This document shows, piece by piece, positions 26,309 to 36,881 of a DNA stretch of 62,174 nt (position 1 is its first letter; the number at the start of each line of letters is the position of its first letter). Source of the DNA: Lachnospiraceae bacterium (GTDB taxonomy: Bacteria; Bacillota; Clostridia; Lachnospirales; Lachnospiraceae); NCBI GenBank assembly GCA_017634975.1, contig JAGBMJ010000098.1, positions 1-62,174 of the forward strand. Reading direction: 5' to 3'. Made by a program: the position numbers and the translations under genes. A model generated the notes under the pieces. The model made no database searches and was not told the DNA's origin. It saw nothing but the letters and a program-made list of their open reading frames with translations.

Positions 26309-27838
26309 TTAGAATCCGTAGAAGAAGGATTCCATTTCGCTCTCATCCAGCTTGTCTGCCAGTTCCGGTGTCATCTCGATCACAATATAATCCTGTGTAC
26401 CATAGGAATCATCATACGGGAAGAAGATGTAATACAGTTCCTCATATCCGTAAGGATCATCCGGATTCACGGCATATCCCATATACAGGTCTTCGCCGTT
26501 CGGTGCTGCACCGCTGATCGCCACATCATAGTCAAAGGAATAATCGTCCGGGATCGGATCCATATCATCCGACATTTCTTCCGGATGCATGCAGTAATAC
26601 GGGTTATACTGCATCTCACCATAAACCCAGAAGTAATCGCCATCTTCACTTTCAAACTCGAGATAGCTGCCGTCATCCTGTACAACCGTATAACCGTCCG
26701 GCGCATAGATTGTAAAGGAATCGCTGGAATATTCTGCATTAATGGTTGCCGAACCTTTTCCGGAAGTCGCAGTCGGCTCCGGACGCTCGGTCGGTTCCGG
26801 CTTATCGGTCGGTTCCGGTTCATCCGTCGGCTCCGGTGCATCGGTCGGCTCCGGTGTCGGCTCCGGCGCTGCTTCCTTAACCGTTACTTTGATGGTCACA
26901 TCGTCACAGCCCTTACCGCTGACTGTGATCGTTGTCTTACCTTCGGAAATACCCTCGATGCGGAAACCGTCATCAAATTCCGAAGAGATCGCTGCGATCT
27001 TCTTATCTTCCGAAGCATATTCCAGATGTACTTTTTTCAGATCCGTATCAAAATTGGTGATCGCGATTTCTGCCTCTTCACCTACCTTGATCGTTACCTT
27101 GCTGTCCGATACTTCAATGGTCTTGTGTCCCCCGAATACACCAAACGCGAAACAGAGTCCGAGACCGCCGCCGATCAGCAGGACCACAACTGCAACGAGT
27201 GCAATGATCAGACCGGCACCTCCTTTTTTCTTAGGCGGTGTAGCTGCCCCGCCGGCCGGAGTCTGTGCGAAATTGTTCTGCGGAGCCGCATTGAAACTAT
27301 TCTGCTGCGGTGCGCTGTTGAAGCTGTTCTGCTGCGGTGCACTGTTGAAGCTGTTCTGCTGCGGTGCCGCTCCGAATCCGCCCTGCTGCGGTGCTGCATT
27401 GAAACTATTCTGCTGCGGCGCTGCATTGAAACTATTCTGCTGCGGCGCTGCTCCGAAGCTGCCGGTCTGCGGCGCACTGTTGAAACTGTTCTGCTGCGGT
27501 GCTGCTCCGAATCCACTCTGCTGCGGTGCTGTATTTGCATTCTCGGTCTGCGGTGCTGCTCCGAAGCTGCCGGTCTGCGGCGCACTGTTAAAGCTGCTCT
27601 GCTGCGGTGCCGCACTGGCCGTATCTGCCTGCGGTGCTACTCCGAATCCACCCTGCTGCGGTGCTGCGTTTGCACTCTCCACCTGCGGCGCTGCCCCAAA
27701 GCCACCCTGAGGTGCTGCGTTTGCGCTGTCCGTCTGCGGTGCCGTCTCAACCGGGAATGCATAGCCGCAGTTTTCGCAGAATTTCACCGTAGAACTGTTA
27801 CTTCTGCCACACTGCGGACAAACTCTTCCGTTATCCAT
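26309..27838 (-). CDS. Zinc-ribbon, Gln/Asn/Pro-repeat, single-pass membrane protein with Ig-like domain
   Basis: 509 residues; start after AAGGAGGAGATCAGGAG. Order of parts: zinc ribbon (C7, C10, C21, C24); about 165 residues of degenerate APQQ-N-SF-N/G-A repeats; one transmembrane helix (about 206-230); an extracellular Ig-like, BIG2-type beta domain with VTIKVGEEAEIAITNF and EGISEGKTTITVSG; a Pro/Glu/Thr stalk (PEPTD-type repeats); and an acidic Tyr/Asp-rich C-terminal domain of about 150 residues. The layout suggests a cytoplasmic ribbon and low-complexity tail joined to a surface domain. Function unknown. The repeat DNA is nearly identical between units and may vary in copy number. Confidence 0.8.
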   Translation of the reverse strand: MDNGRVCPQCGRSNSSTVKFCENCGYAFPVETAPQTDSANAAPQGGFGAAPQVESANAAPQQGGFGVAPQADTASAAPQQSSFNSAPQTGSFGAAPQTENANTAPQQSGFGAAPQQNSFNSAPQTGSFGAAPQQNSFNAAPQQNSFNAAPQQGGFGAAPQQNSFNSAPQQNSFNSAPQQNSFNAAPQNNFAQTPAGGAATPPKKKGGAGLIIALVAVVVLLIGGGLGLCFAFGVFGGHKTIEVSDSKVTIKVGEEAEIAITNFDTDLKKVHLEYASEDKKIAAISSEFDDGFRIEGISEGKTTITVSGKGCDDVTIKVTVKEAAPEPTPEPTDAPEPTDEPEPTDKPEPTERPEPTATSGKGSATINAEYSSDSFTIYAPDGYTVVQDDGSYLEFESEDGDYFWVYGEMQYNPYYCMHPEEMSDDMDPIPDDYSFDYDVAISGAAPNGEDLYMGYAVNPDDPYGYEELYYIFFPYDDSYGTQDYIVIEMTPELADKLDESEMESFFYGF

Positions 27839-29138: not shown

Positions 29139-29318
29139 AATGACATGAATAAATAAGCGAAAATAAATAGTGCGCAACTTTATTTCTCATCTTTGGTCAT
29201 AATTAACAATTTTCTATTCTTCTTCCATATTTTTATGGTCAGAACTTTATCCTTCTGTTATAATGTCAAATGGAATGCCTATGGGAAAATAGGCGGAAAA
29301 AGAAAGGTAGGTACTCTT

Positions 29319-30182
29319 ATGGCACAAAATGCGTACTATGACGAGATCATGGCCTTACAAGGTCTGAATGATTTCAAGGATGTCATCGAACAATGGCAGC
29401 GCCTGAGCGACAATCTGGAAAAGTTCCATGCCAAAAGCGGCGTCGTTCTTCCGAACATGCTCTGGTCCTGCGCAACCGGTTTTGACCGGGAACGCCTGTT
29501 AGATCTGTTAACCAACTATATGTATGAAGCCGGTAACCTGATGGAATTCTACGGCAATACGCGCCGTCTGGATTACTTTATGGACTATGTTCCTGCCGCA
29601 AAAGAATGCCACGAGATTGAGAAGATCACTGAGAAGATCCGTGACGCTGCAGGTTTCCGTTCCGAATATCACGGCGTGATCACCATTGACGTAAGTGAAT
29701 GGGTAGGCCATTTCAAAGATCCTCATTTCCTGGATTTCTTAAAATATCTGGTTAGTTTAAATGAAGATGTATTGTATGTATTTACGATTCCCAGCTACAA
29801 CCCGCAGGCGGTAGAACAGCTGACACAGCTGCTGGTACTCTTCTTCCGTATCCAGCCGATCGAGATGTCCCTGCCGAGCAACGAAGAGCTGGGCAACTAT
29901 ATCAAGAAGGAGATCTCCGATTACGGTCTGAATCTGGATCCGGAGGCTGAGGCTATGATCATCGCGACCGTGAATCGTCTGCGTGATGACCAGTATTTCG
30001 CCGGCTATGATATGCTGGACCGACTGGCAAGTGATATTGTTTACTCTGTATATACTTCCACTCCGCCTTACGATGGTACGGTATCCAAGGGTATGATCAG
30101 TGCCTTTGCACCGGACGGCATCTATGTAACGGAGCTGATCCAGAACAATGCCCGCATCTTTACGGCACAGTTCAATTATTAA
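29319..30182 (+). CDS. Degenerate AAA+ ATPase-like protein (CbbX/CfxQ-like fold, Walker A lost)
   Basis: 287 residues from the ATG at 29319 (GGTAGGTACTCTT upstream). The overall pattern follows CbbX-type AAA+ proteins. LPNMLWSCATGFDRERLLDL (44-63) aligns with the strand-P-loop-helix region, but GxPGTGKT has become SCATGFDRE, without Gly-Lys-Thr. GVITIDVSEW (119-128) sits where Walker B is expected with the Glu displaced. MSLPSNEELGNYIKKEISDY, then GLNLDPEAEAM, resembles the AAA lid. It should not hydrolyse ATP and may be a structural or regulatory partner. The stop is 21 nt before the VirD4-like gene, which has its own AGGAGG site; the pair is probably an operon. The fold assignment is by motif comparison only. 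Confidence 0.75.
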   Translation: MAQNAYYDEIMALQGLNDFKDVIEQWQRLSDNLEKFHAKSGVVLPNMLWSCATGFDRERLLDLLTNYMYEAGNLMEFYGNTRRLDYFMDYVPAAKECHEIEKITEKIRDAAGFRSEYHGVITIDVSEWVGHFKDPHFLDFLKYLVSLNEDVLYVFTIPSYNPQAVEQLTQLLVLFFRIQPIEMSLPSNEELGNYIKKEISDYGLNLDPEAEAMIIATVNRLRDDQYFAGYDMLDRLASDIVYSVYTSTPPYDGTVSKGMISAFAPDGIYVTELIQNNARIFTAQFNY

Positions 30183-30203
30183 TGAGTAGGAGGAAAACAT
30201 TTC

Positions 30204-31700
30204 ATGAGCAGTACTCAGATCAAAAATACAAGATATAAGAGCAATATGGGACAGACTCGCTGGGCTACCATCGAAGAGATCCAGCATTCTGCTACCAAAG
30301 TAGATATCGATGCTCCGGTATATCCTACCGGCGGTATCCCGGTAATGTCCGACGGACATACCGCTTATCTGGATGGCCGCGACACCCATACACTGATCTT
30401 CGGTGCTACCGGTTCCAAGAAAACCCGTATTTTCTGTATGCCTACACTGAACATGTTCATCCGTGCAGGCGAGTCTTTCGTTGTAACCGACCCGAAGGCA
30501 GAGCTTTATGTTCGTACCGGCGGTTTTGCAAAAGAGCACGGCTACAAGACTGTAGTGCTGAACTTCCGTGATATCGGCTACGGCGATATGTGGGATCCTC
30601 TGGCACTGCCGTACGAGTATTATCGTACCGGCCGTCGTGATGAAGCAAACAACCTGGTCAACGACCTTGCGGCTACCCTTTCCGCACGACAGAAGGAAAA
30701 CACCACCGACCTGCTCTATCCGTTGATGGCAGAAACCCTTCTGACCGCGAATATGTACCTGCTCTTCGAGGCAGCAGCTGCTGAGAACGCAGTTAATATG
30801 CGAAGCCTTACCGCTCTCTGCTCCCAGGCAGCTCTGGAATCCTTAAAGACTCTGGCAGGTAAGATGAGCACCCAGAACACCATCGGTATGTTGTTCAAGG
30901 GTACCCTGCTTGGCGAAAATGAGAAGACCATTTCTTCCATTATGTCAGTGCTTTACGGTATGGTTTCCATCTTCAACCTGAACAAGCGTCTGACCGATAT
31001 GCTCTGCCACAACACCTTCGATATCCGTATGTTCGGTCACGAAAAGACCGCGGTATACGTTATCGTACCCGATGAAAAAACGACCTGCCACTTCCTGGTA
31101 ACCATGTTTATCAAGCAGGTATACGAAATCCTGATCGGTGAGGCCCAGCGTCAGGCTTCCCTCGCACTTCCGATCCGTGTTAACTTCGTACTCGACGAGT
31201 TCTGTAACATCCCGAAGGTACCGGATATGCCTTCCATGATTTCGGCAGCTCGTTCCCGTAACATGAGATTCTATCTGGTCGTACAGTCCCTGCATCAGCT
31301 GAAGGGCCGTTACGGCGAGGATGCAGATACCATCAAGGGTAACTGTGATAACTGGATCTTCCTGACCTCCCGTGAGCGTGACCTGCTCAACGAAATGAGC
31401 TTCCTTTGCGGTGAGATCGATGCCTGGGGTCCGGGCGGTGCTGAGAAGCGTAAGCTGATCTCCGTAACCGAGCTGCAGCGTTTCAACAAGGAGAAAGGTG
31501 AGTGCCTGATCCTGCACGGTCGTGAATATCCGTTCATCACCTATATGGCTGATATCGACCAGTACCCGGCATTCTCCAACTACAAGGTTGTGCCGATCCC
31601 TCCGATCGAGATCAAGTCGCCGCCTACCTTCGACGTTATCAAGTTTACGACGAAGTTCGCATTCATCGCAGACGGTGTTCCGTTCGCAAATCCGGACTAA
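30204..31700 (+). CDS. Soluble VirD4/TraG-type coupling ATPase homologue
   Basis: 498 residues. Walker A is FGATGSKKTR (67-74), with Lys in place of the usual second Gly-position residue (GSKKT instead of GSGKT). The T4CP signature SFVVTDPKAELY follows, Walker B is NFVLDEFCNIPKV (D331, E332), and MRFYLVVQSLHQLKGRYG, then NCDNWIFLTS, matches the later RecA-fold motifs. VirD4 proteins usually carry N-terminal membrane helices and pump DNA or protein into a type IV channel; here these helices are absent and no relaxase, VirB4 or pilus gene is in the window. Codon use is strongly optimised, as in GH94, suggesting a well-expressed chromosomal gene rather than a recent ICE gene. Followed by a strong terminator. 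Confidence 0.88.
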   Translation: MSSTQIKNTRYKSNMGQTRWATIEEIQHSATKVDIDAPVYPTGGIPVMSDGHTAYLDGRDTHTLIFGATGSKKTRIFCMPTLNMFIRAGESFVVTDPKAELYVRTGGFAKEHGYKTVVLNFRDIGYGDMWDPLALPYEYYRTGRRDEANNLVNDLAATLSARQKENTTDLLYPLMAETLLTANMYLLFEAAAAENAVNMRSLTALCSQAALESLKTLAGKMSTQNTIGMLFKGTLLGENEKTISSIMSVLYGMVSIFNLNKRLTDMLCHNTFDIRMFGHEKTAVYVIVPDEKTTCHFLVTMFIKQVYEILIGEAQRQASLALPIRVNFVLDEFCNIPKVPDMPSMISAARSRNMRFYLVVQSLHQLKGRYGEDADTIKGNCDNWIFLTSRERDLLNEMSFLCGEIDAWGPGGAEKRKLISVTELQRFNKEKGECLILHGREYPFITYMADIDQYPAFSNYKVVPIPPIEIKSPPTFDVIKFTTKFAFIADGVPFANPD

Positions 31701-31775: not shown

Positions 31776-31839
31776 GGAAAACCATGGGGACGGACCTCCT
31801 GGTACTTTAGTACCAGGAGGTCCGTCCCCATGGTTTTCC
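31776..31839. repeat. GGGGACGG palindromic element, copy 3 (near-perfect)
   Basis: Perfect arms of at least 28 bp (31778-31805 and 31810-31837) with a TTTA loop; the core is CCATGGGGACGGACCTCC. An extra half-unit (GGAAAACCACGGGGAAAACC) lies just left. It sits between the convergent VirD4-like and trpA genes. This copy lacks the ATCGAAGAT-type loop and the outer ATGAATTT arms of copies 1 and 4. Confidence 0.9.
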
Positions 31840-34213: not shown

Positions 34214-36724
34214 TTAAGACTCTTCTGCCCAGATCTTTTTGTTCAGAGCTTCATCCTGCTTGCCGATCATATCCAGCACTTCTTTAGCCTTCTGCTGCTC
34301 TTCGATAGCGCGGTTCTCATCTTTGATGAGCAGTTCCAGACTGCCGGAAATGGTATCAATGTTGTTCTTGAACTCCTCCACCATCTGTGCGGTACGCTGC
34401 TGTGCCACCTTGATGACTTCTTCCTTGTATGCGATGAACTGCTCCACGGTCTGTGCGTTAAATGCACGCTCCAGATCGCGCTTGTACGCCTTCTTATCCA
34501 TCGTGTTAAAGATCAGGATTGCCTTTTGCTCGTTGATGTAATCATTCATCTTCAGAGCCCCTATCTCCGAAGGCGGGATCTCGGTATCGGAGATATTCGC
34601 GATACGGCGGATCAGACCTTCATCAATGCCCTTGTACTCCTTGATCTTTTTAACAATGATATTCTTGAGTTCCTGTACCTGAGCAGCCAGGATATCGCCG
34701 CGGATACGCTTGTAGTAATCATCGATCTCCTGCAGGTAACGGTTCAGTTCACTGATGATGATCGTATTTTTCTTCTCAAAGATCTCCGGCTTCAGAGCGA
34801 TCCACTGCATCTTATCGGCCTGGCGGCTTGCCAGTTCCTGACGCTTTTCGATCTCTTTTACCAGCGCCTTGATCTCTTCTACCTGGGTCTCCAGGGAGTC
34901 ATCCGTGATGCGAGCCACAAATTCATCATGAGACACCTCGATATCGTGTACCATGCTGGTCTTCATGATCTCGATGTTCTTCTCGATGTGTTCCTTCGAC
35001 AGTCTTGCCTGGTTCTCAATGGCTTCATAGTCTACGCGGACGAAATCGATCAGACCCTCGATACCGTCGTACAGCCCTTTTGCCTTTACGGCCAGGGCGT
35101 ATTTCTGCGCATATTTAATGATCTCCTGCTCGATGGCATACATACCCGAGTTGATATAGATCCTGCGAATCACACCATCCAGAGAGTTGTCACAGCTCTT
35201 GGAAGCTCTCTCGCATTCCGCGATCAGCTGCTTGGTCTCAAAATCCGCATCCGCGATCTTGTCATAGCGATAAAAGATACCGCTGTCCGCGGAGATATTG
35301 ATCTCCTGCTCGGTAAACGGATCCTTCGTCGGCTCATTGTTGATCTCCTGCTTATGGTTTGCCAGCCAGGTACGCTCTTCCTCCAGATCCACATTACCCT
35401 GGATCGCCTTGCTGATATAAGCTGCCTTGGAAGATACAAAGAACAGTCTCGCCTGTGCCAGATCGATCTCCATATCCTCTTCATCGTAGATCTTATCCTC
35501 TTCCTTCAGAGTAACAACTACCTTCTTGTTGCGCAGCAGTTTCAGATCCTTGCTGGCCTTGGTATCTGCCTGATTGATCACGTGGAAGGAACGATCCAGA
35601 TCGATCGATACGCCCGTCTCATTCTTCTTGCCATCACGGAAGTCATTGATCAGCTTATACAGTACGGAATTGCCGGTACCTTCCATCTTGGTCGGCTCGT
35701 AGATCACGATCAGGATGGAATTGGTCTGCTGCTGCAGTGCTTCCTTCAGGATCAGCAGATGCTCGCTGGAATTGGAATCCGTTCCCGGTGTATCAAAGAA
35801 CGTAAAGTTGATATTCTTGCAGAGCGGGATCGGATATCCCACTTCAATGATCCCATTGATATAACCGGAGCCGTCCTGCTGCTCATGGTTGGGGACATCA
35901 TTCAGTTTCTTCAGGATCCTGCACAGCTGTTCATGCTGTTTCAGTCCGAGCTCAGCTACTGCAGTAGCTTCCAGCTCCAGCATCTTACGGATATTTTCTT
36001 CCGTGGGCCCCAGTCCCCTTACCACTTCAAACTGTCCGACCGGCTCATTCCATACGATCTGTACAGTATCCGGTCTGGTATCTTTTGTGGTATGTACGGA
36101 AAAGATCACGCGCGGTTTTTCTTCATTGCGGATCTTAAACATCTTTGCAGTTTCGGAGTTGATGCTCTCCGGGAGAATACGCTTACCGATGATCGCATTG
36201 ATAAACGTGGATTTGCCGGCAGAATAGGTACCTACCAGGCAAAGATTCACCTCGTTCTTGTTCAGTGCTTCCTTTCGCTCCTCAAACATCTCACGACGTT
36301 TGCGGAACATCTGCTTGGTATCGTTATTCTTCAGCTGGTTTTCAAACGAATCCAGTGTCTCTTCGCAGAATGTGCTGATCGCCTCATAAATCTCGGAAAC
36401 GCTCGGCAGCTCGATATAATCAACGATCTTAAAAATCTGCTTATCCTTGGTATCGTTATAGTCGGATATCTTCTTCTGCAGATCCTCGTAGTCAATCTTC
36501 GTACCCTTGAAGGTTATGTTTACGTTGTCTTTATTAAACTGTTCCCATATATCATCAAAGAATTTGCTCCCCTGATTCTGCAGCAAAAACTCTCCGCTGC
36601 CCGGTCCGTACTTCTGCAGTCTGGGGCACTCATCATAAGGAATCTCAACAAAGCTACCCTTAAAACGTCCGCAGAAACGGATCTCTTTCTTTACGGGATG
36701 ATACATTAACATAAGTTCTTTCAT
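34214..36724 (-). CDS. Dynamin-family large GTPase
   Basis: 836 residues from the ATG at 36722-36724 (GGAGG 5 nt upstream). Residues 1-110 form an N-terminal domain of unknown type. GTPase motifs: G1 GTYSAGKST (165-173), G3 FFDTPGTDS (309-317) and G4 HVINQAD (381-387). The long C-terminal part is strongly charged and helical (stalk/coiled-coil type), ending in repeated KxEE-rich helices. Bacterial dynamin-like proteins remodel or protect membranes, often as pairs; here there is one gene only and no obvious membrane insertion helix. Monocistronic with its own palindromic promoter. Stress or phage-protection roles are known for some relatives but unproven here. Confidence 0.88.
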   Translation of the reverse strand: MKELMLMYHPVKKEIRFCGRFKGSFVEIPYDECPRLQKYGPGSGEFLLQNQGSKFFDDIWEQFNKDNVNITFKGTKIDYEDLQKKISDYNDTKDKQIFKIVDYIELPSVSEIYEAISTFCEETLDSFENQLKNNDTKQMFRKRREMFEERKEALNKNEVNLCLVGTYSAGKSTFINAIIGKRILPESINSETAKMFKIRNEEKPRVIFSVHTTKDTRPDTVQIVWNEPVGQFEVVRGLGPTEENIRKMLELEATAVAELGLKQHEQLCRILKKLNDVPNHEQQDGSGYINGIIEVGYPIPLCKNINFTFFDTPGTDSNSSEHLLILKEALQQQTNSILIVIYEPTKMEGTGNSVLYKLINDFRDGKKNETGVSIDLDRSFHVINQADTKASKDLKLLRNKKVVVTLKEEDKIYDEEDMEIDLAQARLFFVSSKAAYISKAIQGNVDLEEERTWLANHKQEINNEPTKDPFTEQEINISADSGIFYRYDKIADADFETKQLIAECERASKSCDNSLDGVIRRIYINSGMYAIEQEIIKYAQKYALAVKAKGLYDGIEGLIDFVRVDYEAIENQARLSKEHIEKNIEIMKTSMVHDIEVSHDEFVARITDDSLETQVEEIKALVKEIEKRQELASRQADKMQWIALKPEIFEKKNTIIISELNRYLQEIDDYYKRIRGDILAAQVQELKNIIVKKIKEYKGIDEGLIRRIANISDTEIPPSEIGALKMNDYINEQKAILIFNTMDKKAYKRDLERAFNAQTVEQFIAYKEEVIKVAQQRTAQMVEEFKNNIDTISGSLELLIKDENRAIEEQQKAKEVLDMIGKQDEALNKKIWAEES

Positions 36725-36766
36725 CGTAACCTCCGCGAATGGGCATAAAATTCTGATAAACGAAAA

Positions 36767-36808
36767 CACCCTAGGTTTTATTATACCTAGGGTGCTACAA
36801 AAATACAA
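36767..36808 (-). promoter_or_regulatory. Palindrome overlapping a -10 element: promoter/operator or terminator
   Basis: Perfect 10-bp arms CACCCTAGGT (36767-36776) and ACCTAGGGTG (36785-36794). On the minus strand TTGTAT (36808-36803), a 17-nt spacer and TATAAT (36785-36780) form a promoter for the GTPase gene whose -10 sits in the palindrome loop. The same hairpin is followed by TTTTCGTTT and lies downstream of deoD, so it may also terminate deoD transcription. Confidence 0.6.
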
Positions 36809-36881
36809 GTAAAAATTGTTGTTTATACCCAATATTTATTAATTCATAACGTTCGTTATACCATATTTATGTAAATTGGGT

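Follow-up and report, generated by a model that had tools for sequence, protein, structure and literature searches.

The two consecutive genes P1 and P2, located in the 62,174-nucleotide contig JAGBMJ010000098.1 of a Lachnospiraceae bacterium (assembly GCA_017634975.1; this whole stretch is called the window), encode a degenerate AAA+ protein and a soluble VirD4-type ATPase, respectively. Tentatively, and with a confidence that approaches an even chance, we read the pair as a cytosolic remodelling machine with a conjugation-type motor, which would be derived from a partner of the protease ClpP, would have been uncoupled from ClpP in the genus of the window and would probably serve there as a chaperone. 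The two genes are paired and conserved throughout this genus, P1 is homologous to the first domain of larger AAA+ proteins, and relatives carry neighbouring clpP genes and IGF-type C-terminal tails, both of which are absent here.

P1 as a degenerate AAA+ homologue

Profile comparisons assign P1 to the AAA+ superfamily by homology. The NCBIfam model holA (clamp-loader delta) was matched by 13 of 14 P1 members at E ≤0.01 (best 3e-8); the window P1 matched it at E 5.3e-6 with 26 bits, far under the cut-off of 80, which leaves it outside the DNA polymerase III delta family. The profile of the 14 members aligned with domain 1 of eight larger AAA+ proteins of 628–706 amino acids (253 columns, probability 99.7, E 4.4e-26), the second domain of which, an ATPase of CbbX type, keeps its Walker motifs intact and has CbbX and EccA1 as best matches in the Protein Data Bank (PDB). 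By this comparison, P1 is homologous to domain 1, the inactive one, of a CbbX-type protein with two domains. No Pfam AAA or AAA_lid_6 match to P1 was found at E 1, and nothing was matched in a PDB profile search; with its motifs gone, P1 lacks the AAA domain with Walker A and B and the AAA_lid_6 that mark the CbbX/SpoVK/EccA group. P1 was rejected as CbbX itself, since it matches domain 1 of the large proteins and not their CbbX-type domain; of the 'CbbX-like' layout given in the preliminary description, the AAA+ relation therefore stands, but P1 is the counterpart of the partner domain rather than a dead CbbX.

Both nucleotide-binding motifs of P1 have decayed. In alignment A2, the complete GxxxxGK[ST] is missing at the aligned place in 14 of 14 P1 proteins, where relatives read AGSGKSMLL, DGIGKTKML or SGTGRTHIL. 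A partial P-loop remains in the closest relatives, as AGSGKS (L103), DGIGKT (L095) and SGTGRT (L097 and L099), and only L103 and L095 retain GxGK[ST] (L and G numbers denote loci and genomes, respectively). The Walker-B-like strand of the window P1 reads IDVSEW, in which the Asp is followed by Val, not Glu; after the strand comes an EWxGH motif whose W and H are invariant in 13 of 13 P1 proteins (alignment A6). The holA matches, the profile comparison and this strand thus bear out the AAA+ ancestry with lost P-loop and Walker B Glu that had been noticed in the window alone.

P2 as a soluble VirD4-type ATPase

P2 matched PF02534 (T4SS-DNA_transf) at E 1.2e-37, passed the cut-off of NF045973 (the VirD4-like CD1115 family; 266 versus 250 bits) and matched DotL in a PDB profile comparison (E 7.6e-6). 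Averaged over 19 residues, the hydropathy ahead of the P-loop peaks at 0.42 in the window P2, versus 1.8–2.8 by the same measure in 13 of 16 coupling-protein-like open reading frames (ORFs), and the N-terminal transmembrane helix of a coupling protein is missing. A VirD4/TraG-type ATPase with a GSKKT P-loop and without a membrane helix, as first described, is supported by the family matches and the hydropathy.

The P-loop GATGSKKT, which departs from the canonical Walker A, occurs in 29 of 29 genus genomes checked. The Asp and Glu of Walker B, as well as four positions in an RSRN...VVQ stretch, where coupling proteins have their arginine finger and glutamine motif, are invariant in 11 proteins. 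Because of this invariance ATP use may be retained in P2, which the Gly-to-Lys change makes uncertain.

A conserved module of one genus

P1 was found in 31 of 35 genomes of the genus and in none of 25 genomes outside it (single-sequence query), and P2 in 32 of the 35. In 31 of 31 cases P1 adjoins P2 on the same contig. Neither gene was found in G005, G012 and G021, through loss or missing assembly. Identity to the window species is 85–100% for P2 (28 genomes, median 90%) and 59–96% for P1 (29 genomes, median 63%). P2 is about as conserved as ClpP: in the same 18 genomes, the median identity is 0.89 for whole P2 versus 0.91 for the canonical ClpP core, and P2 exceeds ClpP in 12 of the 18 (ClpP sequences were taken from 20 of the 35 genomes). 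Synonymous divergence of P2 was saturated in 0 of 28 pairs. The effective number of codons of P2 is 36.2, second lowest among 26 chosen window ORFs, whereas that of P1 is an ordinary 42.8; the optimised codons claimed for both genes are thus confined to P2. The unsaturated synonymous divergence and the strong codon bias together suggest that P2 is highly expressed. The genus consists of gut bacteria; it includes the isolates NK4A179, AB2028, XPB1003 and NC2008, and several records come from rumen or other gut samples.

The relaxase profile PF03432 gave 15 matches in 10 of the 35 genus genomes and none on the contigs that carry P1–P2 (draft assemblies; other relaxase families and VirB4 were not searched), and no conjugation gene was found among the scanned neighbours. 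The relaxase and transfer genes of an integrative and conjugative element (ICE) were thus not seen around the pair, PF03432 being the only relaxase searched. Because of the genus-wide pairing, the conservation of P2 and the absence of all 15 relaxase matches from these contigs, the pair is a stable cellular module, as had been proposed, and neither an obvious ICE remnant nor an evident conjugative element. The earlier view that this is not standard conjugation is in keeping with these data, as a constant location inside ICEs was not seen. A conjugative or ICE origin was rejected on the neighbours, the PF03432 positions and the separation of the P2 clade from coupling proteins.

Searches of 72,556 plasmid records, 50,697 phage records and the viral contigs yielded no P1, and on its absence from these collections P1 was rejected as a mobile or phage gene. 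Plasmid matches to P2 reached at most 28% identity and were all annotated as conjugal transfer proteins (best 10 of 32). A defence system was likewise rejected, as PADLOC gave nothing for P1 and, for P2, a weak match to the defence ATPase mad8 (E 2.6e-4).

Relatives outside the genus

A scan of the genome collection with the P1 alignment returned 35 loci, 30 of them close (the genus) and 5 distant at 31–33% identity. In the family (200 genomes), five genomes matched, namely two genus members, G078 and two with large AAA+ proteins; in the class (391 genomes), nine matched, namely the window, three with short P1 proteins (G588, G564 and G045) and five with large AAA+ proteins. With the P2 profile, 12 of 392 genomes of the order scored below E 1e-129, followed by a gap to 2.8e-100, past which came few intermediates and then many ordinary coupling proteins. 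Among 398 genomes of the phylum, P2 matches besides the window were at E 5.5e-89 or weaker, in frames mostly of 616–724 residues. A DNA pattern for the SKK P-loop occurred in 1 of the 391 class genomes, a figure that is not a prevalence because the pattern was too strict and missed G588, G564 and G045, which the P1 profile had found.

In the P2 tree, proteins with an SKK or SLK P-loop are united in a single clade (support 91/84, under the 95/80 threshold) that stands apart both from coupling proteins and from a clpP-linked group with intact P-loops. P1 lies ahead of P2 in 6 of the 6 closest distant loci. In these samples the family is patchy and was seen only in Clostridia, and it is a core module in one Lachnospiraceae genus.

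Gene context was compared in 20 genomes outside the genus (L095–L099, L103, L120–L122, L187–L191, L193 with L200, L194, L195 with L199, and L196–L198), which were picked by P1 or P2 profiles and none by ClpP or tail. They comprise the five distant loci, G078, G588, G564, G045 and the best order-search genomes down to G756 (E 2.5e-81); G651 and G670, with two loci each, were counted as one genome each, and G653 (L192; a P2-like protein with a membrane helix and an intact P-loop, and no P1) was left out. P2-profile matches weaker than G756 fall outside this set, and other clpP-linked P2 may hide among them.

Linkage of relatives to ClpP

In 9 of the 20 outside genomes, clpP adjoins the pair on the same strand, in the order P1–P2–clpP in L095, L120, L121 and L122 and clpP–P1–P2 in L191, L194, L198, L199 and L200. 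The catalytic Ser and His are kept in 9 of 9 linked ClpP proteins, and the third triad position varies. At about two ClpP matches per genome (78 in 35, counted in the genus only), adjacency by chance would be expected in a fraction of a percent; no exact probability is given because some of the nine linked genomes are related. P1 of L095 is further preceded, on its own strand and at a gap of ~580 bases, by genes for a two-domain AAA+ protein and a YbjN protein.

Furthermore, P1 ends in or near IGF in 11 of the 20 genomes (L095–L099, L103, L187, L188, L189, L196 and L197), including a P1 fragment at a contig end (L187) and a P1 in which IGF begins 17 residues from the end (L189). An adjoining clpP, an IGF tail or both are thus found in 19 of the 20, with both in L095 only; at the remaining locus, L190, P2 comes with neither of them and a P1 could not be recognised. 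The pattern [ILVM]GF stands in the last 16 residues of 19 of 55 AAA- or P1-matching ORFs (including genus P1 and other CbbX-type proteins), of 0 of 44 P2 or coupling-protein ORFs, and of 8 of the 466 remaining ORFs from the distant loci (antisense frames included; one of the eight is the L188 P1). Among the eight large AAA+ proteins, the tail is IGF or VGF in six and FGF in one, with none in the eighth, and two directly adjoin clpP. The tails of P1 and of the large proteins are not simply inherited from one another, because they follow different domains. No common internal IGF-like loop was found in the clpP-linked P2 proteins. In plastids, the available text of one study describes the IGF motif of ClpC as essential for binding the Clp protease core, and ClpB3, without IGF, as unable to dock (PMC7966870).

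CbbX-type AAA+ proteins also stand beside or near clpP in L115, L118, L201 and L202, the last two of which belong to the genus of the window. Those of L115 and L118 end in IGF and that of L202 near LGF, and that of L201 has none in the last 16 residues.

Loss of the tail in the genus of the window

At the aligned place of the IGF tail, P1 of the genus reads T[AS][QS][FY] in 28 of 30 proteins, and those of G024 and G013 read TEQY followed by ~30 further residues. In the tree, P2 of the genus nests among its closest relatives (L095–L099, L103 and L160/L187), every one of which has a P1 with an IGF tail. The simplest history would be a ClpP-linked ancestor in which the docking tail was lost once while P2 was kept under strong selection.

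A ClpP match is present in 35 of 35 genus genomes, and exactly one in 14 of them; the window genome has three, of which one is a full-length ClpP and two stand beside phage portal and terminase genes. The nearest clpP on P1–P2 contigs of the genus is ~20 kb off, in four genomes. In G015 C13, G011 C52, G017 C5 and G023 C65, the contig that carries P1–P2 also has a high-scoring clpP, 20–46 kb away.

Ubiquitin-like and other gene clusters of relatives

The L191 cluster also encodes, on the same strand, a ThiF/E1-like protein (PF00899), a SUMO-like ubiquitin-like protein (Ubl; PF11976, 1.2e-5), a weak JAB match (0.025), a transglutaminase-like protein, an SPFH-zinc-ribbon protein and a second P2 with an SLK P-loop. 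Homologues of all five L191 cluster proteins occur in L193 and L195/L199 at 46–58% identity, and the ubiquitin-like set is thus present in three Clostridia genomes (G661, G670 on two contigs, and G651), together with ClpP, P1, a P2 with intact P-loop and a second P2 of the SLK type. L194 (11 kb) has ClpP, P1, both P2 types and a TPR-like homologue, and no E1 or Ubl. The L191, L193 and L195 clusters may represent a possible route from a ubiquitin-like system to a protease. Bacterial Ubl operons, one of them with a ClpS linked to ClpAP, have been described by Iyer et al. 2006 (PMC1779556), and VirD4 is not named in the available text of that work.

Two relatives have other neighbourhoods. In L096 (2272–9755), P1–P2 are divergent from a type VII-like locus with an FtsK/SpoIIIE-FHA ATPase, a Mbeg1-like gene and two weak WXG100 matches, and in L103 (6789–13798) they are found downstream of genes for a TIR-Sel1 protein and for an NTPase with weak NACHT/STAND likeness.

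Organization and neighbours of the locus

The features of the locus are given in Table 1. P1 and P2 lie in the same direction, 21 bases apart, and a 13-pair terminator follows P2, which agrees with the earlier placement of both genes in one unit with its own terminator. Promoter-like matches number 6 versus 5.2 in shuffles and are not commoner than chance, so the evidence for the candidate promoter is weak. Directly past the terminator, between the convergent P2 and trpA, lies a perfect 20-pair inverted repeat (31786–31829). The neighbours of the pair are trpA, trpB, a nucleoside phosphorylase, a cytidylate-kinase-like gene and a GH94 enzyme.

Table 1. Coordinates of P1, P2 and associated features in the window
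Feature	Position	Strand	Basis or remark
F3, small lipoprotein-like gene upstream of P1	28263..29138	+	Usual, not constant neighbour; module membership putative
Candidate sigma-70-like promoter, TGGTCA-17-TATAAT with TG before the second hexamer	29236..29264	+	Consensus scan; 54 bases ahead of the P1 start
P1, pseudo-AAA+ protein, 287 aa	29319..30182	+	Open reading frame, alignment, profile comparisons
Lost P-loop site of P1, CATGFDRERLL	29469..29501	+	Alignment A2
Walker-B-like strand and family motif of P1, VITIDVSEWVGHF	29676..29714	+	Alignments; Glu after Asp missing
P1 tail, TAQF	30162..30173	+	Aligned place of the IGF tail of relatives
P2, soluble VirD4/TraG-fold ATPase, 498 aa	30204..31700	+	Family profiles, hydropathy, PDB profile, tree
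Altered P-loop of P2, GATGSKKT (Lys in place of the Gly that precedes the P-loop Lys)	30402..30425	+	Sequence
Intact Walker B of P2, VNFVLDEF	31179..31202	+	Asp and Glu invariant in 11 of 11 proteins (A5)
RSRN...VVQ stretch of P2	31251..31286	+	R350, R352, R355 and Q361 invariant in 11 proteins (A5)
Intrinsic terminator 3′ of P2	31714..31742	+	13 pairs, 10 of them G-C, then a T run

Of the 28 genus loci that extend far enough upstream (L065 and L094, which do not, are left out), 21 have F3 beside P1, as do 0 of 5 distant loci, and with 21 of 28 F3 was rejected as a constant partner of the pair. Its lipobox is followed by a cluster of cysteines, CDFC...CRDC. On the opposite strand, a gene for a dynamin-like GTPase (34214–36832) is near P1–P2 in 19 of 30 genus loci, many of which are too short to reveal it. 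Further upstream, 26309–27838 encodes a zinc-ribbon protein with many imperfect APQ-rich repeats, followed by a hydrophobic stretch and a Big_2-like domain.

Proposed function and alternatives

In the mechanism that we propose, P2 would assemble into a ring motor of the VirD4 type for threading or remodelling protein, and P1 would be a non-hydrolysing AAA+ ring or adaptor that docks P2 to a partner and presents the substrate. The family may have arisen as a ClpP partner in which P1 and P2 take the places of the inactive first and the active second domain, respectively, of a CbbX-type unfoldase with two domains, and the C-terminal IGF of P1 plugs into ClpP. In the genus of the window, where the IGF tail and the neighbouring clpP are gone, the machine would probably be a chaperone or disaggregase acting without ClpP, related to its tailed relatives as ClpB is to ClpA and ClpC. 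This function is preferred because the loss of IGF with retention of P2 mirrors that relation. In this model, ring assembly, a protein substrate, docking and ATP hydrolysis by P2 despite the altered P-loop are inferred. In the preliminary description, the dead AAA+ protein was proposed to regulate or load a coupling ATPase; the constant pairing is borne out, and the ClpP links across relatives suggest protein remodelling rather than the regulation or loading of a DNA pump.

VirD4-type ATPases are known as membrane pumps of DNA and effectors. P2 shares with the VirD4/TraG coupling proteins (CD1115; NF045973, PF02534) the nucleotide-binding fold, Walker B and the Arg and Gln positions, and differs from them in having no membrane helices, a Lys for the P-loop Gly, P1 as partner, a separate clade and no PF03432 on its contigs. 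Clp ATPases carry their IGF in an internal loop. The clpP linkage and IGF tails of relatives recall ClpX, ClpA and ClpC with ClpP, and the IGF loss of the genus parallels ClpB; unlike in Clp ATPases, however, the motor is VirD4-type, the IGF of relatives stands near the C terminus of the non-catalytic P1, and the window P1 has none. DNA polymerase III delta is an AAA+ subunit without hydrolysis, to which P1 shows a weak but significant match, yet with a score short of the family cut-off, different neighbours and a different tail. With the CbbX/SpoVK/EccA clade, P1 shares its resemblance to the extra first domain of larger proteins that have a CbbX-type second domain, whereas it has no CbbX-type domain, complete P-loop, Walker B Glu or Pfam AAA match of its own. 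This clade is defined in PMC10659427, in the available text of which VirD4 does not occur.

Several points weigh against the proposed machine. The IGF-type docking motif is missing from the window P1 and from 30 of 30 genus P1 proteins, and clpP is not beside the window pair. Of the nine clpP-linked genomes, eight have a P1 without IGF (L122 reads MGL), and the two signals are for this reason almost mutually exclusive; IGF versions could use the general ClpP and the others a dedicated ClpP by other means, or one of the signals could mislead. The P1 proteins of L188 and L189, with profile E of 0.05 and 0.23, owe their assignment to their position, their tail and the likeness between the two. 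The 20 genomes are no full census, lower-ranked P2 matches having been left out. The Gly-to-Lys change could abolish ATP binding by P2, the VirD4 fold also fits a nucleic-acid translocase, and the model draws on sequence and gene context.

That the window pair still works with the canonical ClpP through its altered tail or another surface, as an active Clp-like protease with a VirD4-type motor, appears unlikely. A ClpP is available in all 35 genus genomes, as a single match in 14, the tail form Tx[QS][FY] is common to 30 of 30 genus P1 proteins, and IGF is not the sole way of docking because eight of the nine clpP-linked relatives are also without it; set against this, the IGF-kind tripeptide is gone, the tail change is fixed in the genus, and the nearest clpP on a P1–P2 contig is the one at ~20 kb noted in four genomes. 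We give a smaller chance to P2 being a chromosomal nucleic-acid translocase (in segregation, uptake or anti-plasmid activity) with P1 as a clamp-loader-like loader, to which the VirD4/TraG fold and CD1115 score of P2, its weak likeness to mad8 and the resemblance of P1 to clamp-loader delta all lend themselves. The contigs, however, have no PF03432 relaxase and ordinary neighbours, the plasmid, phage and viral-contig collections yielded no P1, and in relatives the partner genes are those of proteases and, in one type of cluster, of ubiquitin-like conjugation.

That the pair belongs to a secretion system, perhaps providing the coupling ATPase and the chaperone of type VII substrates, seems very improbable. 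L096 adjoins EssC-kind FtsK/SpoIIIE-FHA ATPase, WXG100 and Mbeg1-like genes, and EccA of type VII systems is a CbbX-type AAA+ protein according to the available text of PMC10659427; yet such a neighbourhood occurs in 1 of the 20 genomes only and P2 has no membrane helix, and a type VII part was rejected on this single neighbour case. Descent of the pair as a remnant of a conjugative element, with which the homology of P2 to conjugation coupling proteins would agree, has the faintest chance of all and is already largely refuted by its presence in 31–32 of 35 genus genomes, by the ClpP-like conservation of P2, by the lack of a PF03432 relaxase on the same contig and by the separate P2 clade.

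No report of a ClpP–VirD4 or P1–P2 module was found in the open-licence literature. It is possible, though doubtful, that the family is an undescribed class of ATP-dependent proteases or chaperones in which a VirD4 ring motor replaces the Clp AAA+ motor and a dead AAA+ protein forms the ClpP-docking, substrate-presenting layer, with some members wired to ubiquitin-like systems, as a simple route from ubiquitin to protease, and one genus using a ClpP-independent core chaperone. If so, a VirD4 motor would have been recruited into intracellular protein quality control. The clpP- and ubiquitin-linked relatives would make a Clp-type protease with a non-AAA+ motor in Clostridia, along with ubiquitin-like targeting in some genomes, directly testable, and the Gly-to-Lys change in the P-loop of every genus copy checked is an enzymological question in itself.

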